Positions 12,891-32,066 of a DNA stretch of 64,000 bases are shown piece after piece (the stretch's first letter is position 1; every line of letters begins with the position of its first letter). The stretch lies in IMG/VR virus record IMGVR_UViG_3300047392_000199, positions 1 to 64,000 of that record, one strand, 5' to 3'. The DNA comes from a virus. Made by a program: the position numbers and the translations under genes. The notes under the pieces are model-generated. The model was not told where the DNA came from, did no database searches, and saw only the letters and a program-made list of their open reading frames with translations.

Positions 12891-14744
12891 ATGGCACTAC
12901 AAAAACTTAGAGATTTCTATCAATCTTCGAACACTGAAGTATTCAATGACTTAATGAAGAATAAAGTTGTTGTGTCAGAAAAGATAGCAGCACCTTCTCT
13001 TTATGTTAGAAGAGGTTTAAATGGTTTTGAATTTTTTAAAAATGGAACCAGTGAAGAACTATCGATTATTGATAGAACTTTAGTATCTTTGTATGAAACT
13101 GCAATTAAATATTTTCAAGGACTTTCTCCTGAAATTAAACAATCTATGCCAATAGATTGGAAATTTGGATTTGAATATCTTCCAGAAGGAGATGCGTCTC
13201 CTTTAGATTACGATTCAGTTCCATTAAACTATTTAATACTTACTCATATCCAAGTTACCGGAGATAATGGTAAGCCAAGAAAGATTATTAATGATACTCA
13301 TGTCCTAAACAAATGGGCAAAAACTTTTGAAGTTCAACAACCACCAGTTCTTTTTGAAGGAATGTTAGATTCAAATCAACAAGCTCAATTAAGAAATTTG
13401 GTATCAATGAGTAACGAACAATACCAACAAGAATTCTCTGATAAATCTTTTACAAGAGAAGCATTTCATATCTTCAATAGAAATTTATCAAAATCTACAT
13501 TAAACGATAATTTAGATAAAGAAATCGATGGTTTAATTATCTCATTTGTAGAAGGTACAAAAATCAAATCATTTAAAATGGAAGCCTTTGACCGTGTAAA
13601 TGAGTCAAATGAAGATAGAGAGTCAAGTCATATGTACCAGATCACAATGGTTGACTTATTAGAATTCTTAAATGATTACAATTTAGACGAAATTGAATTA
13701 AACGAGGAGAACTCGGATTTACGATACATTGAATTAGTTTCAGCTATCTACAATCAATATCTAAACAAAAATGCATTTAAATATGTTGGAGCTAAATTTG
13801 ATTCAGCTAGCTTTGCTACTGCAGAATGCTTCCAACTTAATACACAATATATTAAAAACGAAACAACATTAAAGTATCTTGAGAACAACGTTCTTTCTGA
13901 ACTTTATAAAATTGTTGTTGGTAGTTTAAGAAAGAAACGAGTTAAAGAGAGTTCAATTATTACTGGACTTTTATTTACTCAATTAAATGAAATCGTAGAA
14001 AAGATCGAACAAAAAATCTTTGTTGAAAATTCTGACGAAAATGCAGTATATGATTTTAAAAATTATATTATTCATGATCGAGTAGCAAACAGTCAAAAAA
14101 TTACTGAAGCTCTTAAAGTTGATTATCCATCACAAGGAAAAGAGAAAGTAAATATCTTTGTTGGTAGATTCCAACCTTTTACTCTAGGACACGTTAAGGT
14201 TTTAGAAACTCTTTACAAGCAAAACGGATTCCCAGTTATAGTATTTTTAGTTAAAGCAAAAACTGTTAAGAAAGAGGATGCTGTTAAACGTCCTTATGAT
14301 GTTGAAACACAAATTGAAATGTTTAACAATGTACAAAGAGAATATAAATTCTTAAAGCAAGTTATTGTTGTTCCTTCTGCTGCAATTGATGTTATGTTTA
14401 ATCAACTTAGACCAAATTACGAACCAGTTCTTTGGGGTACTGGAACTGACCGAATGAAAGCATATGGATATATGGTTAATAATGACAAGTATCGTGATGA
14501 ACTTGGAGTTTTACCAGAATTTGGTTTATATGAAATCCAAAGAGGAGATGATGATATTTCTGCAACAAAGGTTAGACAATCTTTACTTGATGACAACGTT
14601 AAAGAATTTAATAAAATGACCCCAAACTCGCTTCACTCTATGTTTAATGACCTTAAACAAAAATTAGAGACTTCTATTGCTAACGAATCAATAGTACATG
14701 AAGAAGAGTTTTTAACATTCGAACAATTTATAAACAAGATATAA
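12891..14744 (+). CDS. Fusion: ligase-like domain + NMNAT-type nucleotidyltransferase
   Basis: The 617-aa product. N-terminal half: SEKIAAPSLYV (Lys31), FGFEYL (Glu95), EIDGLIISF (Glu211) and KSFKME (226-231) follow the motif order of ligase-type nucleotidyltransferases, but motif I lacks the usual Asp-Gly. A helical linker follows. C-terminal part: GRFQPFTLGH (425-434) and ISATKVR (556-562) are the signature pair of cytidylyltransferase-like enzymes such as NMN adenylyltransferase. The last residues (LTFEQFINKI) look like the capsid-targeting motif, but at the C-terminus. It starts 1 nt after the previous stop and overlaps the next start. The domain pairing suggests NAD or nucleotide-cofactor chemistry linked to nucleic-acid end repair; the substrate is unknown. 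Confidence 0.65.
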   Translation: MALQKLRDFYQSSNTEVFNDLMKNKVVVSEKIAAPSLYVRRGLNGFEFFKNGTSEELSIIDRTLVSLYETAIKYFQGLSPEIKQSMPIDWKFGFEYLPEGDASPLDYDSVPLNYLILTHIQVTGDNGKPRKIINDTHVLNKWAKTFEVQQPPVLFEGMLDSNQQAQLRNLVSMSNEQYQQEFSDKSFTREAFHIFNRNLSKSTLNDNLDKEIDGLIISFVEGTKIKSFKMEAFDRVNESNEDRESSHMYQITMVDLLEFLNDYNLDEIELNEENSDLRYIELVSAIYNQYLNKNAFKYVGAKFDSASFATAECFQLNTQYIKNETTLKYLENNVLSELYKIVVGSLRKKRVKESSIITGLLFTQLNEIVEKIEQKIFVENSDENAVYDFKNYIIHDRVANSQKITEALKVDYPSQGKEKVNIFVGRFQPFTLGHVKVLETLYKQNGFPVIVFLVKAKTVKKEDAVKRPYDVETQIEMFNNVQREYKFLKQVIVVPSAAIDVMFNQLRPNYEPVLWGTGTDRMKAYGYMVNNDKYRDELGVLPEFGLYEIQRGDDDISATKVRQSLLDDNVKEFNKMTPNSLHSMFNDLKQKLETSIANESIVHEEEFLTFEQFINKI

Positions 14745-18879: not shown

Positions 18880-19173
18880 ATGAGTATTTTAGAAGAAGCA
18901 GACAAAATCGTTAATCACAGATCAGAAGAAGCAGACCGTAATTATGGTCCTTTCTCAGAAGGTATGGATCGTGCAGCAATGATTTTTCAAGGAATGACTG
19001 GTATTCCAGTAACTGGAGAACACATGTTTAAAGCATTAGTTGCTTTGAAATTCTCTAGAGAATCTTATAACCATAAGAAAGACAATTTGCTTGATGCAGT
19101 TGCCTATATCCAAGGATTAGAGAATTACCTTAATGAGATTGAAGAATCTCGTCCAATCAAATCAAATGACTAG
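18880..19173 (+). CDS. DUF6378-like small phage protein
   Basis: The 97-aa product has the layout ILEEADKIVNHRSEEADRNYGPF ... GMTGIPVTGEHM ... ALKFSRE. This is characteristic of a widespread small phage family (DUF6378-type) found near nucleotide and DNA metabolism genes; its biochemical role is not known to me. It overlaps the start of the SGNH-domain gene by 8 nt, so the two are coupled. Confidence 0.6.
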   Translation: MSILEEADKIVNHRSEEADRNYGPFSEGMDRAAMIFQGMTGIPVTGEHMFKALVALKFSRESYNHKKDNLLDAVAYIQGLENYLNEIEESRPIKSND

Positions 19174-20215
19174 TATTTACGAAATTAAAGACAAGTTAGC
19201 TGGCAAAAAGATTGCAATTGATGATGTTGTAACAACTTACAGCTCAAAAAAAGAATCACACAAATCTGCGTGGGCATATTTACTTATGTCTCAATTAAAA
19301 AGTCTAGGATTAGATGTTACTGTTTTGACAAAAGACAGTAACATTCATGATTTCGACGTTTGGATGGTAGCCTTACCAATGGAATTCCAAGGTAGTTACA
19401 ATCTTTTTGGCGGTGCAGGAGATGAACCAGCTGCTAGAATCCAGAGATTTATTGATTTTAAAGGAGATGTGTATTGTCTTAATAGACAAATGCCAGATGT
19501 TGGCGCATTTGCACAATCTCGTATGAATTCTTGTACAGACAATTGGAAATCATTAGACGTTGCAATCCTGTCATCAAGGTCAAACAATGTCGAGTCAATT
19601 GATTTAACCCTTAACTCGGAAATCTTTGTACTCGGTGATAGCCATTCAGTCTCTGCTTACGTTCCAGGAGCAAACATTTCCAGAAATGATGGTAAAACAT
19701 TATTTGGAGTTATTAAAGAAGGAATGCAGAATTATATTCCTGCTGGAACAAAACACCTAATTACATATTTTGGTAACATTGATGTTAGACACCATTTGTG
19801 CCGCCAACCAGATCCAATTGCAGCAACTGAATCTCTAGTTAAAAACTATGTTGAACACTTAAAAAGTCTAGGCATGGAAAAGATCAGTGTTATGCAATTA
19901 CTACCAATCGACCACGAAGAGAGAAGAATTCCAAAGACTGGATTCTACAAAGGAACACCATTTTATGGAAATTTAGAAAAAAGATTGGAAATTTGTCGAA
20001 TTTTTAACAATAAGCTGAGTATATATCTAAGTGAGGCCGGATATGAATTTATCCAATGGCCAAGCGAATGGTACAAGCTAAGCCCAAAAGACTATGCGGA
20101 CATTTATATGGAGAAACCAGGATCGGTGCACCTTTCACGAAATTATTATCAATATGATTTCGAAACTGGCCAAAAGAATCCAGCATTAAAACCAAAAGTC
20201 ACGAGTTTATTTTGA
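19166..20215 (+). CDS. Two-domain protein with SGNH-hydrolase-like C-terminal domain
   Basis: The 349-aa product. The first ~150 residues look Rossmann-like (KKIAIDDVV, SLGLDVTVL, HDFDVWMVALPM). The second domain carries SGNH blocks: GDSHS (157-161), GNID (about 203-206) and SVHLS (about 321-325, candidate catalytic His). It would cleave or transfer an ester, acyl or glycosyl-linked group. The chain ends VTSLF, the clamp-binding-like tail also found on the polymerase C-half. I chose ATG 19166, overlapping the previous stop, rather than an earlier ATG at 19133 deep inside that gene. It sits directly ahead of inositol-phosphate synthase, so a role in the same pathway is inferred. Confidence 0.55.
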   Translation: MTSIYEIKDKLAGKKIAIDDVVTTYSSKKESHKSAWAYLLMSQLKSLGLDVTVLTKDSNIHDFDVWMVALPMEFQGSYNLFGGAGDEPAARIQRFIDFKGDVYCLNRQMPDVGAFAQSRMNSCTDNWKSLDVAILSSRSNNVESIDLTLNSEIFVLGDSHSVSAYVPGANISRNDGKTLFGVIKEGMQNYIPAGTKHLITYFGNIDVRHHLCRQPDPIAATESLVKNYVEHLKSLGMEKISVMQLLPIDHEERRIPKTGFYKGTPFYGNLEKRLEICRIFNNKLSIYLSEAGYEFIQWPSEWYKLSPKDYADIYMEKPGSVHLSRNYYQYDFETGQKNPALKPKVTSLF

Positions 20216-20240
20216 AACCTTTTATAAATTACAAGTATAA
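20214..20240 (+). promoter_or_regulatory. Replication-class promoter of the inositol-phosphate synthase gene
   Basis: GAAAC at 20214-20218 (overlapping the upstream stop), 9 nt, ATTAC at 20228-20232, GTATAA at 20235-20240. It lies 24 nt before the ATG. Confidence 0.55.
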
Positions 20241-20263
20241 CTTAAAACAAATTACTAAAAATT

Positions 20264-21442
20264 ATGAGTAAAATTAAAGTTGCAATCATTGGTACAGGAA
20301 ACTGTGCTAAGTCTCTCGTAGAAGGAGTACAATTCTACACAGAAAATCAAGCAAATATTGATGGTATGATGCGTAGCGATATCGGTGGATATGGCGCAAA
20401 AGACATTGAATTTGTTTGTGCATTTGATATTGATGAGCGTAAAGTAAATCAACCATTAGGTGTTGCATTGAAACAACGTCCAAATTCTGCATGGGATATC
20501 GTTTCAACTATCGATTCTACTGCTCCAGTTTATGAAGCTCCAGTTATTGATGGTTATGCATTGTTAATGGACGCGTATCCAGAATCAAATCGTTTCTTGG
20601 TTTCTGAAGAGTTGAGAAATTCAACTGAGACAAATCGTACTGAATGGACCGATAAAAAGGACAGACAGTGGAAAGACAAAATTATTGGTCTTTTAAAACA
20701 ACACGAAGTTGAAGTATTGATTAACTACTTACCAGTAGGTTCTCAAGCAGCAACAGAATTTTGGGCAGAAATCTGTCTAGAAACTGGAATTTCTTTCGTA
20801 AACTGTATTCCAGTATTTATTGCATCTGATCCAGCATGGGAGAAACGTTTTATTGACGCAGGTATTCCATTGATTGGTGATGATATGCGTTCTCAATTTG
20901 GTGCATCTATCTTGTCTCAAATGTTACAAGAACTTGCATTCGAAAGAGGTCACGTAGTAAGAGCACACATTCAACGTAATGTTGGTGGTAACACTGACTT
21001 CTTGAATATGGAAGACAAAACGCGTTTGAAATCTAAAAAGATTTCTAAAGAGAACGTAATCCGCGCTCAGAATGATATTCGTGGAATATCAACAGAAGGT
21101 TCATTCTTACATGCAGGTCCTTCAGAGTACATCTCATTCTATGGAGATAACAAAGTTGCTAACTTCCGTTTAGAACTTGAAGGATTTGGTGGAGCACCAG
21201 TTATTTTTGATGCTCAACTATCTGTACAAGATAGTCCAAACTCTGCAGGAGTTGTAATTGACGCTCTACGTTATGTTAGAGTTGCAAGAGAAATGGGAAT
21301 TGTTGGTGCTTTAAGAGGACCATCAGCATTTACCCAAAAGACACCACCTCAACAAATGATGTTTGTTGATGCTGTTCAAGAATGCGAAGCTTTAGCAAAT
21401 CGTAAACTTACTAAAGTTACGGAGAAACAAGTTAAAGCTTAA
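20264..21442 (+). CDS. ino1: Inositol-1-phosphate synthase (Ino1/MIPS family)
   Basis: The 392-aa product converts glucose 6-phosphate to myo-inositol phosphate using NAD. An NAD-binding start is visible (IIGTGNCAKSLVEG, 8-21). Family motifs run through the chain: INYLPVGSQAAT, NCIPVFIASDP, RNVGGNTDF, and SPNSAGVVIDALRYVRVAREMG near the C-terminus. The length fits the shorter prokaryotic/archaeal form rather than the ~500-aa eukaryotic enzyme. It has its own promoter and a strong terminator, so it is a stand-alone transcription unit within the cluster. The enzyme is unusual in a phage and suggests inositol is used for nucleotide, glycan or lipid modification. Confidence 0.85.
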   Translation: MSKIKVAIIGTGNCAKSLVEGVQFYTENQANIDGMMRSDIGGYGAKDIEFVCAFDIDERKVNQPLGVALKQRPNSAWDIVSTIDSTAPVYEAPVIDGYALLMDAYPESNRFLVSEELRNSTETNRTEWTDKKDRQWKDKIIGLLKQHEVEVLINYLPVGSQAATEFWAEICLETGISFVNCIPVFIASDPAWEKRFIDAGIPLIGDDMRSQFGASILSQMLQELAFERGHVVRAHIQRNVGGNTDFLNMEDKTRLKSKKISKENVIRAQNDIRGISTEGSFLHAGPSEYISFYGDNKVANFRLELEGFGGAPVIFDAQLSVQDSPNSAGVVIDALRYVRVAREMGIVGALRGPSAFTQKTPPQQMMFVDAVQECEALANRKLTKVTEKQVKA

Positions 21443-21453
21443 TTAATCCAACA

Positions 21454-21484
21454 AGATGGAGAGTTTTGCTCTCCATCTTTTTTT
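21454..21484 (+). terminator. Intrinsic terminator after ino1
   Basis: AGATGGAGAG / CTCTCCATCT with loop TTTTG, then seven T. It is a strong stop just 11 nt after the gene end; the HAD gene begins 11 nt beyond. Confidence 0.85.
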
Positions 21485-21495
21485 AATTTAGAAAG

Positions 21496-21873
21496 ATGAA
21501 AAATCAAGAAATATTCGCATACGATTTTGATGGTGTAGTTTCTTTAGGAATTAGACCAAGATTCAGTGATGATGTTATTATCACAGGTAGATGTCAAGAA
21601 GAGGCGCCATACGTTTTTGAAAAATTAGCGGAAATGGGAATCTCTACAAATGTTTACTTTAATCAAATGACTTTACAAGAAAGAGGAAATCATACAGTTG
21701 AAGCTCGTGTTTTCTCTGGTCGTCATAAAGCAAGAACTATTTATAACCTTAAAGAACAAGGTATTGATGTAGTTCGCTTCTTTGATGATGACGAAGTTCA
21801 AATTGCGGTTATTAAACAATGGCACCCTGATTTGGATATTGTCCATGTAGTATCAACATTAGTAGAAAAATAA
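21496..21873 (+). CDS. HAD-like phosphatase
   Basis: The 125-aa HAD-superfamily protein has the nucleophile motif YDFDGVV (residues about 7-13), a motif II-type IITGR (about 29-33), a Lys in GRHKA (about 75-79) and the acidic motif FFDDDE (about 95-100). This is a minimal HAD core without a large cap. In this setting it could dephosphorylate inositol phosphate or a modified nucleotide; T4-like phages also use HAD proteins as polynucleotide 3'-phosphatases. The substrate cannot be read from the sequence. Confidence 0.65.
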   Translation: MKNQEIFAYDFDGVVSLGIRPRFSDDVIITGRCQEEAPYVFEKLAEMGISTNVYFNQMTLQERGNHTVEARVFSGRHKARTIYNLKEQGIDVVRFFDDDEVQIAVIKQWHPDLDIVHVVSTLVEK

Positions 21874-21882
21874 AATCAATCA

Positions 21883-22905
21883 ATGAAATTCGGAATATTA
21901 AATATCTATATTAATACTTCATGTAATACAAATCGAGCAAATGGATTAGAAATCTATTATCTTCGAAAGGCATTACTTGAGGCAGGACATGAAGTGTCTA
22001 TTATTGGACATAAAAACTTAAGAAATGCCGAACAAGAATATTATGTAGATGCTAATGAAGCCGAATGGGAAACTTATGATGGTATATTCATTCAATTAGC
22101 AAAAGATAATTTCTTTGGCGGTGGATTAAAACCACATACAGTTGCAATCGTTGAAGGTATTGCAAAAGCAAAGAATAAAATCTACAATCTTGCAACTGAT
22201 CCAATGTTTCCACCAATTAATCCTGCCAGATCTTTAGCAAGATTTAATTTATGTCAAGATTATGTTGACGTATGGGATGACCTAATTGAAGATTCGATTC
22301 AAATCTTTCCAGGAAAAGACATTAAGAAATTTAATGGATGGAAGAAGGGAAATGTAATGAACTTCAACCTATTCGGATATATTTTCAAGAATCTATTTAC
22401 TGAAAGAGAATTGGCCAATCCAACTCTATTTCACGGAGAAGATACTAAAAGATGGGATGTTATCTATTTTGGTAGAAACAGAAAAAGGTATCGTGAAAGT
22501 ATGTTGCAAAAATATATTCCAAAAGATACTAGAAATTTATTGGTTGGATATAAAAGTAAAAATGTACCATCAACCCAAATCAATCCAGTTTCGCATGACG
22601 AGATGATGTATCTTGTTAATCAATCTAAAGTTAGTCTAATTATCGGAGATGAAGAGCATTTAGATAATGTTGTTACATATCGTTTTTATGAAACTCTAGC
22701 TTCTAATTCATTAGCAGCAATTCAAATTGAATACGATCCAAATAAAAAGCTTATTCAGGATCCAGTACTTAGAAAGGTATTATATGTTAAAAATGCCGAA
22801 GATGTTAAAGTACTAACTGAATTATATTCAAAAGATTTAATTGATCGTCAAAAACGAGAATTAGCCAGAATATTTAGTGAAATTAACAAACCTATAGAAT
22901 TATAA
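21883..22905 (+). CDS. GT-B-like glycosyltransferase
   Basis: The 340-aa product begins with a Rossmann strand (MKFGILNIYINTS) and NGLEIYYLRKALLEAGHEVSIIG, the usual start of GT-B fold glycosyltransferases. The second half has DVIYFGRNRKRYRE and, near 255-285, SLIIGDEEHLDNVVTYRFYETLASNS, which resembles the sugar-nucleotide-binding E-x(7)-E region. No membrane segment, so it is cytoplasmic. In T4, glucosyltransferases modify hydroxymethylated DNA bases; the neighbours here make a DNA target plausible, although a surface glycan target cannot be excluded. Confidence 0.55.
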   Translation: MKFGILNIYINTSCNTNRANGLEIYYLRKALLEAGHEVSIIGHKNLRNAEQEYYVDANEAEWETYDGIFIQLAKDNFFGGGLKPHTVAIVEGIAKAKNKIYNLATDPMFPPINPARSLARFNLCQDYVDVWDDLIEDSIQIFPGKDIKKFNGWKKGNVMNFNLFGYIFKNLFTERELANPTLFHGEDTKRWDVIYFGRNRKRYRESMLQKYIPKDTRNLLVGYKSKNVPSTQINPVSHDEMMYLVNQSKVSLIIGDEEHLDNVVTYRFYETLASNSLAAIQIEYDPNKKLIQDPVLRKVLYVKNAEDVKVLTELYSKDLIDRQKRELARIFSEINKPIEL

Positions 22906-22906
22906 T

Positions 22907-23575
22907 ATGCTTACGAAAAGTCAAAGAGAACTAAAAGCAAACTACATAAAATATCTTAATGCAACCGAAAGGATTGACAAAGATATGATTAAAGATTGCA
23001 TTATCCATTACATTAAACCTGAAGTAGATTATACTGATAAAGTTTGTCTTGATTTAGGTGGAAATGTTGGTGGATTTACTAAATTAGCAATAGATCATGG
23101 TGCAAAACAAGTTATCACAGTAGAATGTGATGTAAGAAATTACACTAAGTTATCTCAAAGTTTTGCAGAAGAACCAAAAGCAAAGATTATTCATGCTGCG
23201 GTTTCTGGAAGCAATGACAAAACTATTAAAATCTATAAAGGAAATAGTGGTGGTTCTCATTGTTCTACGTCAATCATGAAAAGAAGTACTTTCCATGACT
23301 ATGATGAGGTACAAAATTTACATATTCAAGAATTGTTAGATATGTACAAACCAGATATTATCAAAATTGATGTTGAAGGTGCCGAGTATCAAATCTTAGA
23401 ATTCATTGAAGCTTACTATCCTGAAGTAATTTTTGTTGAATTACACATGGGAAAAGTAAAAGAACATGCCAAACCAGCTATTGAAAGATTATCAAATTTA
23501 TACCCAATCAATGAGGTAAATAGTTTTATTGTCTTTAAAGAAATTGGCGGATATGATTGTTGGTTTAAAAAATAA
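22907..23575 (+). CDS. FkbM-family methyltransferase
   Basis: The 222-aa SAM-dependent methyltransferase has motif I VCLDLGGNVGGFT (46-58), an acidic residue after strand two (VITVECD), and the family-typical IIKIDVEGAEYQIL near 147-160, followed by VIFVELH. FkbM enzymes usually O-methylate sugars or cyclitols rather than DNA bases directly. It is separated from the glycosyltransferase by one base, implying that the two act on the same product, for example a base-linked sugar or inositol. Confidence 0.75.
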   Translation: MLTKSQRELKANYIKYLNATERIDKDMIKDCIIHYIKPEVDYTDKVCLDLGGNVGGFTKLAIDHGAKQVITVECDVRNYTKLSQSFAEEPKAKIIHAAVSGSNDKTIKIYKGNSGGSHCSTSIMKRSTFHDYDEVQNLHIQELLDMYKPDIIKIDVEGAEYQILEFIEAYYPEVIFVELHMGKVKEHAKPAIERLSNLYPINEVNSFIVFKEIGGYDCWFKK

Positions 23576-23584
23576 AATAATAAA

Positions 23585-24634
23585 ATGAGTAATATAATTG
23601 AAAGCGTAAATATGGATGTCGTGAAAGACATCGGTCGTTTCTTTAATAAAGTAAACGAAAGAGCCCTTTATAATATGGGAGTGCTGGATAGTTATGATAG
23701 CGGTGGAGACGATGCTCTTGGAGAAACTGTAGAGTATTTCCATCCACAAATTACTCTAGACGATCGTATGAGATATATCATGGAGAATATTGTATATGCT
23801 CCAATCTCAATGGACAATATTATTTGCAATACAATTATTTCCCACTTTTATGGAGCTCGTGGAATTCACCAAGTTCTAACAAGAGATCCAAATCCAAAGA
23901 CAGCATTAATTGATTTTGAAAGACTTTTAGTTGATCGAGATTATGAGAATAAAATTCGTAAGAATTTAGAAGATGCAGTTTCTTTAGGTTTACCAATCTA
24001 TGGAAGTACGGAATTACGTACTAGTCTTTTTGGAGCAGCAAATAATTATGTTGCTCAGTTGAGAAATCAACCAAGAGATGCTCATAAAATTAACATTCTT
24101 TTATGGGTAGCTTCTTTTATACCTCGAGGTATCACAGGAAGAATGGCCCAGGTTAAATCTTTAAACGAGATGTATGATATTATCTCTTCGCTTGAAGGAG
24201 TAGGACAGTACTACGGTTACCACTGTTCAACGTCTAACTCGGTAAATCCAAGAATTCCAATCAATCACGATGAAAGATTTTGCGTACCAGGTCCTGGAGC
24301 AAGATTTACATTAGACCTAATGTTTGGAGAAGGTTGCAATATTCCTTATGGTGATAGAGTTATTTGGTTCCGTGAAAACTATAAAGACCTTATTGGAGAT
24401 ATTCCATTACATGAATCAACTCATAATATTTATGTTGATGGTAAGAAGATTTTCCAAGAAGAACAAAACGATCTTAAAACTTATGGATGCGAGGTTGGCC
24501 TTTGTCAGTATGGCGTTTATTACCGATTAAGAAACAATCCACATTTAATTAGTCGTCGAAAGGTTGCAAGAACTGATGATTCAGTTATGGAATACTTTTT
24601 TAATAATAATTTTGAACAAAACTCGCTTTTCTAA
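23585..24634 (+). CDS. aGPT-Pplase / 5hmdU-kinase-helical-like DNA hypermodification protein
   Basis: In this 349-aa product the C-terminal two thirds match the pattern of a DNA-glycosylase-like helical family tied to hypermodified thymine in phages (alpha-glutamyl/putrescinyl-thymine pyrophosphorylase and related helical domains). Visible are LEGVGQYYGYH near 204-214, then DERFCVPGPGARFTLDLMF near 229-247. Members of this family act on 5-hydroxymethyluracil in DNA or attach groups to it. The chain ends FEQNSLF, a clamp-binding-like tail. It follows the FkbM methyltransferase by 10 nt. The family call is from memory of the motif and needs a profile search. Confidence 0.55.
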   Translation: MSNIIESVNMDVVKDIGRFFNKVNERALYNMGVLDSYDSGGDDALGETVEYFHPQITLDDRMRYIMENIVYAPISMDNIICNTIISHFYGARGIHQVLTRDPNPKTALIDFERLLVDRDYENKIRKNLEDAVSLGLPIYGSTELRTSLFGAANNYVAQLRNQPRDAHKINILLWVASFIPRGITGRMAQVKSLNEMYDIISSLEGVGQYYGYHCSTSNSVNPRIPINHDERFCVPGPGARFTLDLMFGEGCNIPYGDRVIWFRENYKDLIGDIPLHESTHNIYVDGKKIFQEEQNDLKTYGCEVGLCQYGVYYRLRNNPHLISRRKVARTDDSVMEYFFNNNFEQNSLF

Positions 24635-24657: not shown

Positions 24658-25080
24658 ATGAAAGCAACGAGTATCAAAAACCTTTTCCTAGACGATTTTA
24701 GACAACCACATGATTGCATGAGCTACATGCCGTACCGAATTGGTACACATTCAGCAATGTATACTCAACAAGAATGGTCAGTTGTTAAAAACTATGACGA
24801 ATTTACCGAATGGATTACTTTAAATGGTCTTCCTGAAATGGTATCATTCGATCATGATTTAGCAGATGAACATTACAGCCCAGCAATGTGCGGAGATGGA
24901 GCTGACTATCCAACTGAATTTGATGAAAAAACAGGTTTAGACTGTGCTAAATGGTTAGTTAATTATTGTATTGACAATAAGTTTAAATTTCCATGTTTTG
25001 AAGTACATTCAATGAATCCAGTCGGCTCAGAAAGAATTAGAAATTATATTCAAGATTACATCAAATTTAGTAAACAATAA
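24658..25080 (+). CDS. Cyclic-phosphate-processing receiver-domain protein (Cpr-like)
   Basis: The 140-aa receiver-like fold has the motif set of the predicted cyclic-phosphate-processing family: LFLDDFRQP (9-17), MVSFDHDLADEH (about 60-71) and CFEVHSMNPVGSERI (about 117-131). The family is thought to handle cyclic phosphate ends left by RNA damage. In this phage it may complement the ligase-like enzymes at 11609-14744, or serve nucleotide processing with the neighbouring dUTPase. Confidence 0.65.
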   Translation: MKATSIKNLFLDDFRQPHDCMSYMPYRIGTHSAMYTQQEWSVVKNYDEFTEWITLNGLPEMVSFDHDLADEHYSPAMCGDGADYPTEFDEKTGLDCAKWLVNYCIDNKFKFPCFEVHSMNPVGSERIRNYIQDYIKFSKQ

Positions 25081-25103: not shown

Positions 25104-25571
25104 ATGGCAAATATTGATAATGAATGTAAAGATTTAGAAGTAAATGACTTCTATGATAAATCTACCACGCATCTGGCGGATATTATGAATCACCAAAAAG
25201 AAATGCAAGAAAAAACTTATGGATTTGATTTTGACAATATGTCAATCAGAGACATTATGAATTTCTGGCATGTTAATACACACGCAGTAGTTGATGAAAT
25301 TCATGAAATGACTGATGCTCTTGGTGGTATTAAAGATGGAGATGGTAATGCAGTTTGGAAATATTGGAAAACAGCTCATACTAAATATGAGAACATGAAA
25401 ATTTCCGATCTTTCAGAAAATGATCGCAAAGAACTTTATATGGAATGGGTAGATATTCTACACTTCTTTATAAATTATGCTGCTTCAATCGGATTAGACG
25501 CCAAAACAGCATACAATTACTACTTTGCAAAAGCAGAAGAGAATAAGCAACGCCAAAAACGAGGATATTAA
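25104..25571 (+). CDS. 56: dUTPase/dCTPase, all-alpha NTP pyrophosphatase
   Basis: The 155-aa product resembles dimeric dUTPases and T4 gp56. The metal-binding pattern is visible in DEIHEMTDALGG (about 71-82) and EWVDILHFFINYA (about 115-127), with KAEENKQRQKRGY at the end. It hydrolyses dUTP (and possibly dCTP) to the monophosphate, keeping uracil out of DNA and supplying dUMP for thymidylate-type chemistry. dUMP would also be the precursor for 5-hydroxymethyl-dUMP if the adjacent modification cluster works on thymine. The stop overlaps the polymerase start (TAATG). Confidence 0.8.
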   Translation: MANIDNECKDLEVNDFYDKSTTHLADIMNHQKEMQEKTYGFDFDNMSIRDIMNFWHVNTHAVVDEIHEMTDALGGIKDGDGNAVWKYWKTAHTKYENMKISDLSENDRKELYMEWVDILHFFINYAASIGLDAKTAYNYYFAKAEENKQRQKRGY

Positions 25572-26980
25572 TGTTATTAGACATCGAACAAAGAGAAAAA
25601 GAGGTTATGGTTTCCTTTTATAATAAAGAAGGAGAAGTAGCTTTTAAAAGATACCCAATCAATCAATACCAAAACTGGTTTGTTTGTGATGCTAAAGATC
25701 GTGAAGCAAGTACTCAATTTAAAAATTGGGATAATCGTCCCGTTAAATTAGGTACATCTAGACAATTTAATAAGTTTTCTTTGGTATATTTTATGGATAA
25801 TCTTCCTGAAAAGGATAAAGAAGAGATTTATGCATACAATATGCCAAAGACTTATTTTGTCGATATTGAGACTGAAATTGTTGATGGTTTCCCTAAAGCA
25901 GAAGAAGCTAAATCTAGAATCTTAACTTTCTCAATTATTACTCCAAATAAAAAGACAATTGTTCTTGGATTAGAAGACCTTTCACCTGAACAAATTAGTC
26001 AAATTGAAAAAGATACTAATGAGTATTTTAAACAATTAGATTCTGATTGGACTTTTCAATATATTAAGTTTAAATCTGAATACGATATGGTTTATACGTT
26101 CTTGTATAAATTCATGCCTAAATTCCCAATGATGTCAGGTTGGAACTTTATCAACTATGACTGGCAATATATTGTTAATCGTTGTAAAAGATTACAAATT
26201 GATATTGCAGATTCAGCACTAACAAAAGCAGTAGATTCTACAGATTCAAGACCACTTCACATGGGTATTCTTGATTACATGCAATTATATGACAAATATG
26301 ATAAATCTGTAAAAGTTAAAGAATCAAATGCTCTTGAATATGTTGCAGGTCAAGTTCTAGGTTTTGGTAAAATCAAGTACAATGGCGGTTTACAAGACCT
26401 TTATCGTGATGATTTTAAAAAGTATGTTTATTATAACGTAGTCGATAGCGTGTTAGTATATTACATTGACCAGAAATTAAAATCAATGGAAGTACTTCTA
26501 ACACTTGCAAATATTACAAGAATGCCTCTTTATAAAGCAGCATCCCCGGTTGCCGTAACTGAAGCATTAATTGCCCGTAAAATGGCAGAATCTGGTTTTA
26601 GAATTGGAACCGAACAAAGATCTGACGGTAAAAAAGATACACAATATGCAGGTGCATTCGTAAAAGAACCTAAAGTCGGTTTCTACCACGGAGTAAGTGC
26701 ATTTGACTTTGCATCTCTATATCCATCTATTATGCGACAGTTCAATATCTCACCAGATGCATTTGTTGAAAAAGTTCCACTTTCAAAGATTGAAGAACGC
26801 AGAGCAGATAAAAATGTTATTGTTTGTGAAAATGGAGTTGTTTATCGTAATGAAGATTCAATGTTAAAAATGATTCTTACAGATTTATATTCAAAAAGAA
26901 AGCAATATAAGTCTACATCTTACGATCTATATACAAAAGCAGAACACTACAAAAAGTTATTAGAAAAGAAAAAAGATTAA
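25571..26980 (+). CDS. 43A: DNA polymerase gp43, N-terminal half (exonuclease + palm motif A)
   Basis: The 469-aa N-terminal half of a family B polymerase. Proofreading motifs: VDIETEI (Exo I), GWNFINYDWQYIV (Exo II) and YNVVDSVLVYYID (Exo III). Polymerase motif A is present as FDFASLYPSIMRQ (about 378-390). The chain then enters the fingers helix (LTDLYSKRKQYK) and stops cleanly with KKD. The missing fingers second helix, motifs B and C and thumb are in the separate gene at 30870. Together the halves give 867 aa, close to T4 gp43 (898). The reading frame is intact, so this looks like a working split gene, not a pseudogene. Confidence 0.9.
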   Translation: MLLDIEQREKEVMVSFYNKEGEVAFKRYPINQYQNWFVCDAKDREASTQFKNWDNRPVKLGTSRQFNKFSLVYFMDNLPEKDKEEIYAYNMPKTYFVDIETEIVDGFPKAEEAKSRILTFSIITPNKKTIVLGLEDLSPEQISQIEKDTNEYFKQLDSDWTFQYIKFKSEYDMVYTFLYKFMPKFPMMSGWNFINYDWQYIVNRCKRLQIDIADSALTKAVDSTDSRPLHMGILDYMQLYDKYDKSVKVKESNALEYVAGQVLGFGKIKYNGGLQDLYRDDFKKYVYYNVVDSVLVYYIDQKLKSMEVLLTLANITRMPLYKAASPVAVTEALIARKMAESGFRIGTEQRSDGKKDTQYAGAFVKEPKVGFYHGVSAFDFASLYPSIMRQFNISPDAFVEKVPLSKIEERRADKNVIVCENGVVYRNEDSMLKMILTDLYSKRKQYKSTSYDLYTKAEHYKKLLEKKKD

Positions 26981-27098: not shown

Positions 27099-28115
27099 AT
27101 GGAAAATTCAAAATCATCATTATTTGTTGAACGTGTCGAGTACAAACCTTTTGAATATCCAATGTACTATACCGAAGGATGGCTTCCGGTAATGCAAGCA
27201 CATTGGTTACACACAGAGATTTCAATGCAAGGCGATCTTAAAGATTGGAATGAGCATCTAACTCCTTCTGAAAAGAACCTTGTTGGAAATATATTATTAG
27301 GTTTTGCTCAAACAGAATGCGCAGTTTCAGATTACTGGACTAATATGGTAACTAAATGGTTCCCAAAACACGAAATTAGACAAATGGCGATGGCTTTTGG
27401 TGCAAACGAAACAGTACATGCTGTAGCATACTCATACTTAAATGAGACCTTAGGATTAGAAGATTTTGCAGCATTTCTTAAAGAACCTGCAACTTCTCAG
27501 AAATTTGAATTCTTAGTTGAAACTAATAATGATTATACTCATTTAGATTTACAACATAATGCAGATGCTAGAAAAGACGTTGCCCGATCACTTGCAATCT
27601 TCTCTGCTTTCGCTGAAGGAGTTTCACTATATTCATCATTTGCAGTTTTATATTCATTCCAGATGCGTAACCTACTTAAAGGTATTGGTCAGCAAATGAA
27701 ATGGTCAGTTAGAGACGAATCACTACACTCTAAAATGGGTTGTCAACTTTTCCGTCACATATGTGAAGAATATCCTGAATTAAAAGAAGCAGTTCAATCT
27801 CAAGTTGAAGAGGCTGCAAAACTTATGGTTGAAATGGAATTCCAATTTATCAATAAAATGTTTGAAATGGGAGACCTTGAAAACATGCAAGCTGATGACC
27901 TTAAAGAATTTATTAAGAAAAGAGCAAATGAAAAACTAAACGAATTAGGATATGAAAGCATTTTTCATTATAGTGAAGCAATGGCTAGTCAATTAGACTG
28001 GTTCTATCACTTAACAGGAGGACATACACATACTGACTTTTTTGCAATTCGACCAACTGATTACTCTAAAGCAGGAGAAGACGAGAATTGGGACGAGGAC
28101 GACATGTTTTCATAA
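27099..28115 (+). CDS. nrdB: Ribonucleotide reductase class Ia, small subunit
   Basis: The 338-aa beta subunit makes the tyrosyl radical for deoxynucleotide synthesis. Iron ligands and radical site are in place: Glu73 (QTE), Glu104 and His107 with the radical Tyr111 at the E. coli Y122 spacing (NETVHAVAY), a Glu in FAEGVSLY and E..H in RDESLH. The C-terminus is acidic (DENWDEDDMF), as needed for docking on NrdA. It sits between the two polymerase halves, upstream of nrdA with a 31-nt gap. Confidence 0.9.
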   Translation: MENSKSSLFVERVEYKPFEYPMYYTEGWLPVMQAHWLHTEISMQGDLKDWNEHLTPSEKNLVGNILLGFAQTECAVSDYWTNMVTKWFPKHEIRQMAMAFGANETVHAVAYSYLNETLGLEDFAAFLKEPATSQKFEFLVETNNDYTHLDLQHNADARKDVARSLAIFSAFAEGVSLYSSFAVLYSFQMRNLLKGIGQQMKWSVRDESLHSKMGCQLFRHICEEYPELKEAVQSQVEEAAKLMVEMEFQFINKMFEMGDLENMQADDLKEFIKKRANEKLNELGYESIFHYSEAMASQLDWFYHLTGGHTHTDFFAIRPTDYSKAGEDENWDEDDMFS

Positions 28116-28146: not shown

Positions 28147-29964
28147 ATGGATCAAATTAATCACGGAGAACAACAAGGCTGGGAACTAGGAGTAGATTTC
28201 CCAGTTTGGGGTAATACAGAAATTTATGTTAAAACAATATCAAAAGGATATTTGTTAAAAGGTGAAACACCTAAAGATGCTTATTGGAGAGTTTCAACAA
28301 GCGTTGCAAAAAGATTAGGAAAGCCTGAATTGGCAAGCAAATTCTTCGATTATATTTGGAAAGGTTGGTTAAACTTGGCTACTCCAGTTTTATCAAACAC
28401 GGGTACTGAAAGAGGATTACCAATTTCATGTTTTGGTATTGATGTTGCAGATTCTATTGCCGATATTGGTGGTAAGAATTTAGAAATGATGTTACTTGCA
28501 AAACATGGTGGTGGAGTTGGAATTGGTGTAAATCAAATTCGTCCAGCAGGAGCTAATATTTCTCAAAATGGTACATCTGATGGTGTAGTTCCTTTCATTA
28601 AAATTTACGATAGTTCAGTTCTAGCAACCAATCAAGGGTCAGTTAGAAGAGGAGCAGCATCAGTAAATATTGATATTGAACATGGCGATTTTTGGGAATG
28701 GTTAGAAATTAGAGAACCTAAAGGAGATGTTAATCGTCAATCTTTAAATATGCACCAATGTGTTGTTGTTTCAGATAGTTTCATGGCTAAATTAGAAGCT
28801 GGAGACAAAGAAGCAAGAAAACGTTGGGCTGCAGTTCTTAGAAAAAGAAAATCAACTGGAGAGCCTTATGTAATGTACAAAGGAAATGTTAACAGAGCAA
28901 ATCCTGAAGCTTACAAACAAAATGGTTTAAAAGTTTATATGACAAATATTTGTTCAGAGATTACTTTACACACTGATGAGAATCACTCATTTGTTTGTTG
29001 TTTAAGTTCATTGAACTTGGCTAAATATGATGAGTGGAAAAATACTGACTTAGTATATACATCAACTCAATTTTTAGATGGAGTTCTTTCTGAATTTATT
29101 AGTCGTGCAAAATACATGAGAGGTTTTGAAAACTCAGTTCGTTCTGCTGAAAAAGGTAGAGCATTAGGACTTGGAGTTTTAGGATGGCACACATATTTAC
29201 AAGATCGTAATATTCCATTTGATTCCCTAATGGCTCAATTTGAAACTAGAAAGATTTTTAGTCAAATCAAAATTGAATCTGAAAGAGCAAGTAGAGATAT
29301 GGCGACAGAATATGGAGAACCTTTATGGTGTGTTGGTACTGGAATGAGAAACACACATTTACGTGCAATTGCTCCTACAGTTTCTAACTCTAAATTATCT
29401 GGTAATGTTTCTGCAGGTATTGAACCTTGGGCAGCAAACGTATTTACAGAACAAACAGCCAAAGGTACTTTCATTAGAAAGAATCCAACATTAGAAAAAG
29501 CTTTATCATTTGTTAAAAAGAATAATAAAGAAACATGGGATCAGATTTTAGCCGATGGCGGATCAGTTCAAGGTTTAGATTGGATGGATGAATACTTTGT
29601 ACGAATTGGAGAGAAATTAGAAGAGAAAGCAGGAAGACCTATTCATATTGAGAAATTAAATGAATTAGAAAATGTTCATAAAGATGAATTCATTCCAATG
29701 AAAGATGCTTATAGAACATTTAAAGAAATTAATCAAATGGAATTAGTTAAACAAGCTGGACTTCGACAACAATATGTCGACCAAGCAGTTTCATTAAACT
29801 TAGCATTTCCAAATGAGGCCGAACCTAAATTTATCAATCAAGTGCATTTAGAAGCTTATAATCAAGGAATCAAAACACTTTATTATATGAGAACTGAATC
29901 AGTACTTAGAGGAGATATAGCACAAAGAGCAATGGATCCTGATTGTTTAAGTTGTGATGGATAA
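28147..29964 (+). CDS. nrdA: Ribonucleotide reductase class Ia, large subunit
   Basis: The 605-aa alpha subunit. Active-site residues are visible: the redox Cys in ISCFG near residue 95, NICSEI with Asn267, Cys269 and Glu271, the partner Cys in CCLSSLNL near 281-288, and the C-terminal electron-transfer pair DPDCLSCDG. The N-terminus starts directly before the catalytic domain, and the ~90-residue ATP-cone regulatory domain of T4 or E. coli NrdA is missing, so dATP feedback inhibition is probably lost. No intron or intein is seen. Confidence 0.9.
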   Translation: MDQINHGEQQGWELGVDFPVWGNTEIYVKTISKGYLLKGETPKDAYWRVSTSVAKRLGKPELASKFFDYIWKGWLNLATPVLSNTGTERGLPISCFGIDVADSIADIGGKNLEMMLLAKHGGGVGIGVNQIRPAGANISQNGTSDGVVPFIKIYDSSVLATNQGSVRRGAASVNIDIEHGDFWEWLEIREPKGDVNRQSLNMHQCVVVSDSFMAKLEAGDKEARKRWAAVLRKRKSTGEPYVMYKGNVNRANPEAYKQNGLKVYMTNICSEITLHTDENHSFVCCLSSLNLAKYDEWKNTDLVYTSTQFLDGVLSEFISRAKYMRGFENSVRSAEKGRALGLGVLGWHTYLQDRNIPFDSLMAQFETRKIFSQIKIESERASRDMATEYGEPLWCVGTGMRNTHLRAIAPTVSNSKLSGNVSAGIEPWAANVFTEQTAKGTFIRKNPTLEKALSFVKKNNKETWDQILADGGSVQGLDWMDEYFVRIGEKLEEKAGRPIHIEKLNELENVHKDEFIPMKDAYRTFKEINQMELVKQAGLRQQYVDQAVSLNLAFPNEAEPKFINQVHLEAYNQGIKTLYYMRTESVLRGDIAQRAMDPDCLSCDG

Positions 29965-30123: not shown

Positions 30124-30870
30124 ATGAAATTACACATTGACAAAGTAGACCAAAACAATTTTATTGGTTTCGTAAACAGATTGAAACTTATTGACTCTTT
30201 TATCTATTTTAAGATTAAAGGCGATCAAGTAGTTTCTTCAGCTTACTTGCCACAGCGAGATGCTGTGAAGCACAACGCTCTTCCATTAGGAGAGATTTTC
30301 GTAACATCAGGCGAAACACCTGAAAAAGAATTAAAAGTTGCATTTTTTGATGCTGCTAAATTAATCGAAGCATTTAAACAATTCGACTACCAAGGTATCC
30401 ATGGTGAAATCGAATTTATTGAAAATGATGAAGATTGCGTAGCAACAAGCTTTAAAATCTTTAATGATGATTTAGAAATCACATTATCTTGTTCAGAACC
30501 TTCTTTAGGTTACAAAGATTTAACAGAATCTCAATTACAAGGAATCTTCAATACTGAAGGATCTGATTTCGTATTCGAATTAAGTAATGTAGAAGCTGGA
30601 AAAATCAAATCTTTATTCAACTTAGATAAAGATGAAACATTTAGTATCTCATCTTCTGATGATGGTGTTAAAATTAGTGGTAAATCATACAGCAAATTAG
30701 TAAGTACTGAATTTGAAGGTGATAAAGCAAGTGTAACAGTTTATAAAAAGTATTTGAGTTTACTTGACAAAGAGGACTACAAAGCTTACGTATTCGGTAA
30801 TCGCGTAGTATTACGCTCTACTGAATCTGCTACTTTATTAACTATTGCAACATGCCAATCCGCTGATTAA
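30124..30870 (+). CDS. 45: Sliding clamp, gp45-like
   Basis: The 248-aa ring clamp (T4 gp45 is 228 aa) tethers polymerase and also activates late transcription. It has the two-domain clamp layout with weak sequence identity: FINRLKLIDSFIYFKIK-type first strands, an acidic middle (IEFIENDEDCVA) and a second domain from about residue 140. It has its own promoter and overlaps the polymerase C-half by one base, so clamp and polymerase C-half are made together. Confidence 0.75.
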   Translation: MKLHIDKVDQNNFIGFVNRLKLIDSFIYFKIKGDQVVSSAYLPQRDAVKHNALPLGEIFVTSGETPEKELKVAFFDAAKLIEAFKQFDYQGIHGEIEFIENDEDCVATSFKIFNDDLEITLSCSEPSLGYKDLTESQLQGIFNTEGSDFVFELSNVEAGKIKSLFNLDKDETFSISSSDDGVKISGKSYSKLVSTEFEGDKASVTVYKKYLSLLDKEDYKAYVFGNRVVLRSTESATLLTIATCQSAD

Positions 30871-32066
30871 TGACAATTGAAGAACTACTAAATAAACCTG
30901 AAGAGCAACTTACCAGAAACGAGCTTGAAATCTTGGCTACTCATTTTAAGAATGAGTCAGCCAAGTTTACAGCTTATGAACAAGCCGTTAAAGTAACTTT
31001 AAACTCTATTTATGGAGCCTTTGGGAACCAGTGGTTCCATTTTTTCAATATTGATATTGCCGAATCCATCACATTACAAGGACAAAATGCAATTCTTTAT
31101 TCTGCAAAAATTCTAAATAAGTATTTCCAAGAATTCTTTATTAAAGATACTGATGTTCATCAAAAATTAAACATTAAAGTTAAGCATCAAATTCATAAAG
31201 AAGCCGTAATTTATATCGATACCGATTCGAATTATGTGCAGTTTGAAGAGATGTACAATTCTATTGAATGGCTTGGCGAAAAGATGGACATTGCTACATT
31301 TATTTTAGCAATTTACAATCTTAGAATTAAAGAGTATATTTCTAAAGCACTAGATAAATATGCATCTTCTAGAAACACTGAAAGCTTCTTGCAATTTGAA
31401 TTAGAATCTATTGCTTATGCCGGAATTTGGATGGCCAAAAAGAAGTACATTCAAGATATTGCATGGGAAGACAAGTTAAAAGAACATGAAAGATACCCGT
31501 CACTTAAGAAAGTAAAAGTTATTGGATTCGATTCTATTCAATCCTCAACTCCAACTTTTGTTCGTAAGAAATTAACTGAAGCAATTCAATTGTTATTTAC
31601 TGAAAAACCTAATGCTGATACTCTTAGTATTATGGTAAACTTTCTTAAGAAAACTAAGAAAGAATTTAAGATGGCAAACATTGATGATATTACATTCAAT
31701 AAGAGAACAAATAATATTGAAAAATATATCGTTGATGACCATATTGAATTCCAGTATGGTTCTAAATGTCCACCTAACGTGAAAGCTGCAGGATTCTACA
31801 ATTATCTATTGAACAACAATCCAAAGTACAAAAACAAGTACAAATTAATTGGTAATGGCGAAAAGCTAAGATTGTATCATTGTAACCATAAAACTTGCGA
31901 AATGTTTGCATATTTTCCTGGTGACCATCCATATGAAATTGCACCACCTATCGATTATGAAGTACAATTCGAAAAGAGTATGATTGATCCATTAAATCGT
32001 GTATTAGAATCGATTGGATTACAAACTCTAAATAGAAACTTAATTTATTCAACTTCATTATTTTAA
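30870..32066 (+). CDS. 43B: DNA polymerase gp43, C-terminal half (motifs B, C, thumb)
   Basis: The 398-aa C-terminal half of the split family B polymerase. It begins with the returning fingers helix. Motif B is KVTLNSIYGAFGN (about 41-53), motif C YIDTDSNY (about 116-123, the second catalytic Asp), and MAKKKYIQDI is the DNA-binding KKxY element. It ends YSTSLF, a clamp-binding-like peptide, as expected for a T4-type polymerase C-terminus. The start overlaps the clamp stop (TAATG), leaving no room for an intron half upstream. The two halves must therefore associate as proteins. Confidence 0.9.
   Translation: MTIEELLNKPEEQLTRNELEILATHFKNESAKFTAYEQAVKVTLNSIYGAFGNQWFHFFNIDIAESITLQGQNAILYSAKILNKYFQEFFIKDTDVHQKLNIKVKHQIHKEAVIYIDTDSNYVQFEEMYNSIEWLGEKMDIATFILAIYNLRIKEYISKALDKYASSRNTESFLQFELESIAYAGIWMAKKKYIQDIAWEDKLKEHERYPSLKKVKVIGFDSIQSSTPTFVRKKLTEAIQLLFTEKPNADTLSIMVNFLKKTKKEFKMANIDDITFNKRTNNIEKYIVDDHIEFQYGSKCPPNVKAAGFYNYLLNNNPKYKNKYKLIGNGEKLRLYHCNHKTCEMFAYFPGDHPYEIAPPIDYEVQFEKSMIDPLNRVLESIGLQTLNRNLIYSTSLF

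Follow-up and report, generated by a model that had tools for sequence, protein, structure and literature searches.

The stretch of DNA analysed here (the window) covers 64,000 nucleotides, positions 1 to 64,000 of the IMG/VR virus record IMGVR_UViG_3300047392_000199, which is 71,163 bases long. A cluster at 19166-24634 had been taken in a preliminary description, made from the sequence alone, as a candidate for inositol-centred hypermodification of DNA. The reading frames claimed there were found to be present, in line and all on the + strand. The block consists of the following genes:

19166 to 20215, + strand: SGNH-fold enzyme (SGNH) of 349 residues with a BGT-like N-terminal domain and an SGNH/GDSL domain, C-terminus ...VTSLF
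20264 to 21442, + strand: myo-inositol-phosphate synthase (MIPS/INO1), matching PF01658, 1gr0 and phrog_33138
21496 to 21873, + strand: small HAD-type phosphatase (HAD), putative inositol-phosphate phosphatase with the invariant HAD motif residues
21883 to 22905, + strand: DNA beta-glucosyltransferase-like glycosyltransferase (GT), in the tailoring slot, matching PF09198, phrog_7922 and 1bgt
22907 to 23575, + strand: FkbM-type S-adenosylmethionine-dependent methyltransferase (FkbM), in the tailoring slot, matching PF05050
23585 to 24634, + strand: helical protein of the HMUDK_hel / aGPT-PPlase type (HEL), predicted DNA-base transferase, matching PF18723, C-terminus ...NSLF

Since GT and HEL belong to DNA-modifying families, the interpretation as a DNA hypermodification system is supported, and we consider it very probable.

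The assignment of the inositol-phosphate synthase was upheld. Its product matched PF01658 at 8.7e-22 and, over the full length and with its conserved motifs, the inositol-3-phosphate synthase INO1 of M. tuberculosis (1gr0) at 5.3e-79; the next-best entry, the cyclitol(-phosphate) synthase 6k96, was clearly weaker (3.8e-46). The match to the phage family phrog_33138 reached 2.9e-147. The HAD protein gave no match in Pfam, and its identity as a HAD phosphatase is borne out by the residues of the four HAD motifs, D10, D12, T30, K78, D98 and D99 (DxDG, T, K, DD), which were invariant in 18 of 18 aligned sequences (the window, 16 of 31 non-redundant HADs, and L199, a contig of the second clade described below). 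It is proposed that the enzyme acts as an inositol-phosphate phosphatase.

The transferase encoded after HAD, described at first as GT-B-like, could be defined more sharply as a homologue of DNA beta-glucosyltransferase. It matched PF09198, the family of the T4 beta-glucosyltransferase, at 4e-7 (30.3 bits against a cut-off of 27), phrog_7922 at 2.5e-16 and the T4 enzyme 1bgt at 3.2e-15 over residues 1-323. In GT an Asp stands where the 1nzd sequence carries Ala in place of the T4 Asp, a residue which we take to be the catalytic base of the beta-glucosyltransferase. The identity of FkbM was likewise sustained by PF05050 (5.8e-15, 56.3 bits, cut-off 22.7). The occupancy of the two genes was scored in 54 contigs of relatives: FkbM alone was present in 47, GT together with FkbM in three, GT alone in one and neither in three, so that FkbM occurs in 50/54 and GT in 4/54. 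In one contig (L099) FkbM lies downstream of HEL and not between HAD and HEL. Judged by this gene content, GT and FkbM are occupants of a swappable slot.

The profile search of the 23585 product, which had been asked for beforehand, placed HEL in the helical family HMUDK_hel (PF18723, 3.5e-12; the score of 46.7 bits is well over the cut-off, 25). The HEL profile was built from the window and 20 of 22 non-redundant HELs, the named phages L003 and L005 being left out. It matched the HMUDK_hel protein of the Klebsiella phage Menlow (Ackermannvirus) at 5e-8 over 109 columns and gave nothing among the PDB sequences; HEL aligned with the C-terminal half of ORF233c of the Aeromonas phage 44RR at 1.3e-63 over 330 columns. 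The AlphaFold2 model of HEL had a pLDDT of 87. Its top structural alignment was PUGT (8z2n), the 5-phosphomethyl-deoxyuridine glycinyltransferase of phage PaMx11, with Z 10.4 and an rmsd of 4.0 over 230 residues. Down to Z 5.6 the structural matches were, besides PUGT, the queuine salvage enzyme DUF2419, a series of DNA glycosylases and a single hypothetical protein, after which the score dropped to 3.6. The model thus suggests a DNA-glycosylase-like fold for HEL.

A lone HEL homologue, 53% identical, was noticed on a Crocinitomix algicola contig (L198:9956-10987), where it adjoins a 184-residue open reading frame (ORF) lacking a Pfam match and a gene of the phage-integrase family; it is perhaps a cellular defence or modification gene. 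The gene beside the HMUDK_hel protein of Menlow was considered as a kinase and rejected, as it is MazG-like.

The ORF of the SGNH protein opens mechanically at 19133. The start at 19166, as given in the preliminary description, is preferred, since this position overlaps the stop of the preceding gene and the homologues include several whose first Met is aligned with it. The protein matched phrog_13881 at 2.8e-58. In its model (pLDDT 82) residues of about 155-350 matched many GDSL/SGNH esterases with Z 10-11, and this fold match, together with the invariant Ser, Asn and His, establishes the SGNH identity. Ser170, Asn215 and His333 (numbered from the ORF start at 19133), as well as the Gly-Asp-Ser sequence, were invariant in 11 of 11 divergent members, which had been picked for diversity, ten of them being 21-65% identical to the window protein. 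The serine of GDS, the Asn and the His were also invariant in 16/16 closer SGNHs (the window and 15 of 18; L009, L004 and L005 left out). The Asp of block V, three residues before the His (DxxH), was not found in the SGNHs, the window having GSVH and others QSVH or KSVH; therefore the triad either lacks its acid or draws it from elsewhere. The N-terminal domain of SGNH aligned with that of the BGT-like GT in hhalign at E 4.6e-5 over 109 columns, and more weakly (E 0.0017) when the profile of the closer SGNHs was used. In a control of 116 comparisons, made with the 58 other window proteins forwards and reversed, GT ranked first (1.2e-4), followed by a runner-up at 0.014 over 18 columns. This suggests that the N-terminal domain of SGNH and GT have a common module binding hmC-containing DNA (hmC, 5-hydroxymethylcytosine).

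The clamp-binding-like tails noted earlier on SGNH and on the helical protein are present: both end in LF, matching the phage's own DNA polymerase. Such C-terminal tails presumably bind the T4-type clamp. In the window five of the 59 listed genes end in LF (SGNH, HEL, the C-terminal part of the polymerase, an exonuclease-like protein and an unassigned 147-residue protein), where 0.2 would be expected from the frequency of the LF dipeptide (P 2e-6, for a motif chosen after the fact); MIPS, HAD, GT and FkbM of the window are without it. In the first clade, to which the window belongs, 47 complete SGNH copies showed an LF tail 44 times and FNF three times, while HEL ended in LF in 56/60, in LFE in two and in neither in two. 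The second-clade tails differ from those of the first clade, yet those of SGNH and HEL agree within many contigs, mostly being LE-x-FF-like; in L220 both proteins end in PTLF, and in L224 the tails are LLSF and LLEF.

These results bear on the proposal that the targets of GT, FkbM and SGNH are surface glycans, whether of lipopolysaccharide, capsule or capsid. Gene clusters for surface glycans often contain FkbM and SGNH domains, and SGNH domains occur in viral tail proteins. However, the only PDB sequences matched by GT below E 0.05 are those of the T4 DNA beta-glucosyltransferase, HEL falls into a family of DNA-base enzymes, and SGNH and HEL have a polymerase-type tail in common; the linkage with hydroxymethylase genes, given below, is a further point against it. 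Since GT is a homologue of DNA beta-glucosyltransferase and HEL belongs to a DNA-base enzyme family, surface decoration was rejected as scarcely credible. Neither GT nor the 23585 product was placed in a family acting on capsids, lipids or lipopolysaccharide, the outcome which the preliminary description had named as speaking against DNA modification.

Conservation of the block was followed in scans of viral contigs, which gave the best 80 of 120 MIPS loci and 37 HEL loci. For counting in close relatives, contigs without enough sequence on the side in question were left out, as were the named phages and 19 loci from contigs already represented. The order SGNH, MIPS, HAD, a variable slot and HEL recurred in dozens of contigs. 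There were 88 MIPS-bearing contigs after removal of repeats, and among those with sufficient room SGNH lay upstream of MIPS in 84/84, HAD was present in 82/82 and HEL in 54/54, counts which show conservation among relatives and not independence, because the contigs had been fetched by their likeness to the window. The MIPS proteins of the first-clade relatives were 71-98% identical to that of the window. A DNA-level search of the block against named phages gave no match. The block is genuine, and the conservation of its core is wide and exceeds chance.

The preliminary description had seen no hydroxymethylase for dUMP or dCMP in the window and had left the first step unaccounted for. This was confirmed across the whole 71,163-base record, where no gene of the thymidylate-synthase/hydroxymethylase family was found; relatives do provide the missing step. 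In 15 relatives searched, a divergent member of the thymidylate-synthase family was present in six of six records of at least 139 kb and in none of the nine of at most 95 kb. In one of these six, G006, the cluster proteins are 92-100% identical to those of the window, and its copy is closest to the T4 dCMP hydroxymethylase (2.3e-16), then to CMP hydroxymethylase and then to thymidylate synthase; two T4 entries in this comparison deviate from the wild type at the specificity Asp position. All six dCMP-hydroxymethylase-like proteins have Asp where true thymidylate synthases, which are present in four of the same six records, have Asn. We take this Asp to select dCMP. In Tenacibaculum phage PTm1 (L137, about 123231-123866) a divergent thymidylate-synthase-like match holds an in-frame TAA stop.

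In a second clade the hydroxymethylase stands in the locus itself. On contig L199, labelled Rhodobacteraceae, whose MIPS is 46% identical to that of the window, the gene order is a T4 gp42-like hydroxymethylase (1.3e-65), dCMP deaminase, a ferredoxin-type gene, MIPS, HAD, HEL, SGNH and a C5-cytosine methylase-like gene. The HEL of this contig matched PF18723 at 2e-11 (44.3 bits). The scan with the MIPS of L199 gave 43 loci; among contigs with room HAD was present in 40/41 (one counted contig being the L202 locus described below), HEL in 36/36 and SGNH in 30/31, and a hydroxymethylase match lay in the MIPS locus in 15 of 18. L220, L224 and L230 are among the few contigs in which the gene order varies. 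Of the 43 loci, 29 yielded the hydroxymethylase motif, which carried Asp every time and the Asn of thymidylate synthase never. Thus the hydroxymethylase and the inositol genes are physically linked in the second clade. Since dCMP-type hydroxymethylases are found both in the large relatives and in the second-clade locus, the modified base is probably hmC, and hydroxymethyluracil is disfavoured by the Asp-type enzymes.

In L199 (12194-13405) and in many of the contigs L203-L245 the gene after SGNH resembles a C5-cytosine DNA methylase (PF00145, 1.4e-19); its product may belong to this pathway and either introduce a C5 group or change one.

MIPS and HAD were also met near other genes of DNA-modification type. 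In the Caulobacter phage Cr30 they lie near an amino acid:DNA transferase (ADDT; PF18724, 1.3e-52) and a protein resembling DNA glycosyltransferases (phrog_842 4.7e-8; TAGT 8.5e-4, under the cut-off), and in L202:1427-4208 ADDT, MIPS and HAD stand in a row, much as in Cr30. In the Stenotrophomonas phage Mendera (Menderavirus) MIPS and HAD are found among QueC-, QueE- and GTP-cyclohydrolase-type (queuosine-type) genes. These loci resemble the window in joining MIPS and HAD to such genes and differ from it in the partners named; the Cr30 record, unlike the window, had no PF18723 match. From these contexts, MIPS and HAD seem to be a supply module plugged into different base-modification systems. 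The Cr30 ADDT, a 403-residue protein of Mendera and p227nc of Aeromonas phage 25 were considered as HEL homologues and dropped, the profile comparison being without signal; in sequence searches of the PDB the Mendera protein had no match and the Cr30 ADDT one chance-level match, which was not PUGT.

The inositol genes could alternatively be metabolic, serving a compatible solute, phosphatidylinositol or host takeover, and stand beside DNA genes by chance. MIPS is a general metabolic enzyme, the nearest relatives of the capsid include Prevotella phages, and Bacteroidota hosts can make inositol lipids. The MIPS of Menderavirus Ps15 is listed, in the available part of its description (PMC9025141), only as a bacteria-like protein, which can be counted for the same explanation. 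However, MIPS is linked with SGNH, HEL and the hydroxymethylase in two divergent clades, and with ADDT in Cr30 and L202, and we regard a purely metabolic role as very unlikely.

It is quite probable that inositol is placed on the base. The explanation which we favour, and hold to be on balance probable as a whole, is that inositol is attached to hmC by clamp-held SGNH and HEL, with tailoring by the slot enzymes. What was computed in its support are the families, the catalytic motifs, the conserved order, the hydroxymethylase of the relatives, the gene fusion described below and the tails. In the proposed pathway a dCMP hydroxymethylase, encoded elsewhere in the genome or, in the sister clade, in the same locus, would give hydroxymethyl-dCMP, and its polymerization would yield DNA containing hmC. 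MIPS would convert glucose 6-phosphate to inositol phosphate, from which the small HAD enzyme would strip the phosphate to leave free inositol. SGNH and HEL, held at the replication clamp through their C-terminal tails, would act on the DNA at the fork. HEL is predicted to be a transferase of DNA-glycosylase fold, whose kin in other phages swap the activated 5-methylene group of a pyrimidine for a nucleophile; together with SGNH it would attach inositol to the 5-methylene group of hmC. We infer that HEL forms the bond and that SGNH activates or acylates the acceptor. The slot enzymes GT and FkbM may then, in this order of events, decorate the adduct with a sugar or an O-methyl group, so that related phages would differ in their coat.

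Several observations weigh against this explanation, besides the lack of a hydroxymethylase in the window's own record. The structural evidence on HEL is modest: DUF2419 came second with Z 9.5, less than one Z unit from PUGT and thus a tie, Foldseek alone gave E 0.39 for PUGT, and among helical proteins a Z of 10 does not stand out; therefore the assignment leans to a large extent on Pfam. The SGNH copies of L180, L184 and PTm1 have no clamp-type tail. The Mendera record gave no match to PF00303, PF18723 or PF18724. In Aeromonas phage 44RR a single 795-residue protein is SGNH fused to HEL, a fusion also present in AS4, and in both phages it adjoins a sodium:solute symporter, with no MIPS found near it; Aeromonas phage 25 has SGNH without MIPS, with a UDP-galactopyranose mutase (5e-54) two genes upstream. 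Since both proteins occur without MIPS (in 44RR and AS4, and SGNH alone in phage 25), the SGNH/HEL pair is not inositol-specific. As to activation, the available part of PMC6457204 states that 5-HMU DNA kinase does not phosphorylate hmC, and no kinase activating hmC was identified, no systematic search having been made. Therefore another kinase would be required, or SGNH would activate the hydroxymethyl group, or HEL would use hmC directly.

The lack of a known hmC kinase in the block also bears on a variant in which the phosphate is kept, inositol phosphate being joined to hmC, or HAD dephosphorylating a DNA-bound 5-phosphomethyl intermediate. PUGT, with which the HEL model aligns best, has a phosphomethyl pyrimidine as its substrate, and HAD is unusually small, the top PHROG for it being a family of polynucleotide kinases, with an E of only 0.011. 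Against this variant, HAD accompanies MIPS in Cr30 and Mendera too, which fits an enzyme whose substrate is made by MIPS, and in the 21 kb around the SGNH-HEL fusion of 44RR (L003), where MIPS is absent, no HAD match was found. We consider the variant unlikely.

The supply genes of other phages raise a further alternative, that SGNH and HEL add another group (an amino acid, an acyl group or a sugar) to hmC and that the inositol made by MIPS is used separately, for instance as a second coupling partner. The symporter in 44RR, the mutase in phage 25 and, in L184, a pyridoxal phosphate (PLP)-enzyme-like and a kinase-like gene are in its favour. However, MIPS-HAD and SGNH/HEL have a common locus in two clades whose MIPS proteins are only about 46% identical, and it is therefore argued that inositol is the partner there; the alternative appears rather improbable.

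The SGNH scan of viral contigs, of which the best 80 of at least 542 loci were taken, and the named phages show SGNH in other settings. The SGNH-bearing phages 44RR, 25 and AS4 also encode a gp42-type gene, and in the available part of Petrov et al. (2010, PMC2993671) genes 42 and 56 are given as present, and a glucosyltransferase as absent, in 44RR, 31 and 25. These Aeromonas phages thus resemble the window-type system in SGNH (fused to HEL in 44RR) and gene 42, and differ in that no MIPS was found near SGNH, its place being taken by the symporter or the mutase; therefore their adduct may be a hexose. The 44RR symporter is nearest to vSGLT (3e-103), and for this reason its role as an inositol carrier is unsupported. 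Phage 25 gave no match to PF18723, although a divergent copy could escape, since 44RR itself matches at only 4e-4. When viral contigs were scanned for the 44RR fusion, the one genome returned was that of 44RR itself.

In phage 25 the UDP-galactopyranose mutase and a phrog_14998 protein lie just upstream of SGNH (L004:5773-7951), which suggests that its hmC bears a galactofuranose-type decoration. In a 260-kb contig (L177:5577-10863) a dCMP-hydroxymethylase-type gene of the Asp type directly follows SGNH; no MIPS match was found there, and a dTDP-4-dehydrorhamnose 3,5-epimerase (PF00908, 8e-54) and a DUF707 protein are nearby.

In the loci L180-L196 SGNH is directly followed by a second family, HEL-C, in 17/17, and an Asp-type hydroxymethylase is present in 15/17; in L179 SGNH and HEL-C are fused. 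HEL-C, profiled from eight sequences picked for diversity, showed no sequence likeness to HEL, and we read its sequence as helical. The two loci examined ORF by ORF, L180 and L184, carry a PLP-enzyme-like gene (in L184 Pfam 0.003, under the cut-off, and phrog_7093 threonine dehydratase 6e-27) and a small thymidylate-kinase-like gene. By its gene content this cluster looks like another hmC hypermodification system.

The SGNH/HEL pair hence appears to be a wider hmC system that includes the inositol version as one of its forms. We incline slightly to a modular reading, in which SGNH and a DNA-acting helical partner form a clamp-tethered hmC machine and exchangeable supply cassettes set the product: MIPS and HAD inositol, the symporter or the UDP-galactopyranose mutase sugars, and the PLP enzyme an amino compound (L184 type). 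The window would then make the first cyclitol base, and the protection of hmC in 44RR, 31 and 25 would be explained.

The genes around the block were assigned in family searches which took in about 40 of the 59 listed window genes. The neighbours relevant here are the following:

18880 to 19173, + strand: DUF6378 protein of 97 residues (PF19905, 8.7e-9), conserved upstream neighbour of SGNH, whose start it overlaps
24658 to 25080, + strand: cREC domain protein (PF20274, 7.4e-21), adjoining the block, non-core
25104 to 25571, + strand: all-alpha NTP pyrophosphatase (dUTPase/dCTPase-like), matching phrog_173 and phrog_18650
30870 to 32066, + strand: C-terminal part of the DNA polymerase (phrog_1918, 3e-69), tail ...STSLF

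A DUF6378 homologue adjoins SGNH in many relatives, and it does so in L177, a distant contig, as well; the best PHROG of the window protein is named 'phosphofructokinase', a name which is probably wrong. The cREC protein had been counted as a seventh function. Its family was right, and its membership of the pathway was dropped, because the gene is absent from many relatives which retain the rest of the block. The 'dUTPase' placed after it does match the dUTPase family phrog_18650 (3.1e-9) and is more exactly an all-alpha NTP pyrophosphatase (phrog_173, 1.3e-12), with Pfam dUTPase_2 (PF08761) at 0.0021, under the cut-off; it possibly fills the role of gp56, keeping dCTP low. The DNA polymerase is split over two ORFs, 25571-26980 (PF00136 and PF03104) and 30870-32066, between which lie the ribonucleotide reductase genes (27099-28115 and 28147-29964) and one further ORF. 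A 617-residue protein at 12891-14744 has a cytidylyltransferase-like domain in its C-terminal part (PF01467, 3.6e-7).

The source is a large virus infecting aquatic bacteria and, judged by its gene set, a large member of the T4 superfamily: the window encodes the split polymerase, ribonucleotide reductase, UvsX, a DnaB-like helicase, SbcC/SbcD-like proteins, portal, major head protein and tail sheath. Closest to its head protein is that of an uncultured 462-kb phage record (52%), followed by the Prevotella Lak phages (about 39%).

Among the known systems, the glucosyl-hmC pathway of T4 (gp42, gp56 and the alpha- and beta-glucosyltransferases) is similar in the dCMP hydroxymethylase of the relatives, the adjoining dUTPase/dCTPase-like gene, the full-length beta-glucosyltransferase homologue and the setting at the replication fork. 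It differs in that the window block adds MIPS, HAD, SGNH and HEL and that GT is optional; to our knowledge T4 does not use any of these four for glucosylation of hmC. The RB69-like phages likewise have hmC with a group other than glucose, in their case arabinose, and we know of no MIPS/HEL/SGNH block in them. The thymidine hypermodification of M6, ViI and PaMx11 (aGPT-PPlase, PUGT, HMUDK) is comparable through the membership of HEL in PF18723 and through PUGT as its top structural match. In those pathways hydroxymethyluracil is the starting base and receives amino acids or amines, whereas the hydroxymethylase linked to window-type blocks belongs to the dCMP type and the supply genes are those for a cyclitol. 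A search by title and abstract found no paper reporting inositol in phage DNA; as most of the subscription literature lay outside that search, absence from print is not established.

If the favoured explanation is true, phage DNA would have inositol as a substituent in addition to glucose, arabinose and amino compounds, and the installing enzymes, SGNH with its BGT-like domain and HEL, would be new to cytosine as far as our searches show. Inositol and glucose adducts are isobaric, the inositol ether and the glucoside of hydroxymethyldeoxycytidine both having a calculated neutral mass of about 419.15 Da; therefore mass alone cannot tell them apart, and such bases could pass for hexosyl-hmC. The finding would bear on the fate of hmC in phages having gene 42 and lacking a glucosyltransferase, a question dating from 2010, when, according to the available part of PMC2993671, it was not known whether phages like RB69 and JS98 make other modifications. 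It would be testable with cultured phages, and the enzymes could serve as tools for the labelling of hmC. For the phage itself, the modification could be a shield against restriction and CRISPR, hiding it from the defences of its bacterial hosts.

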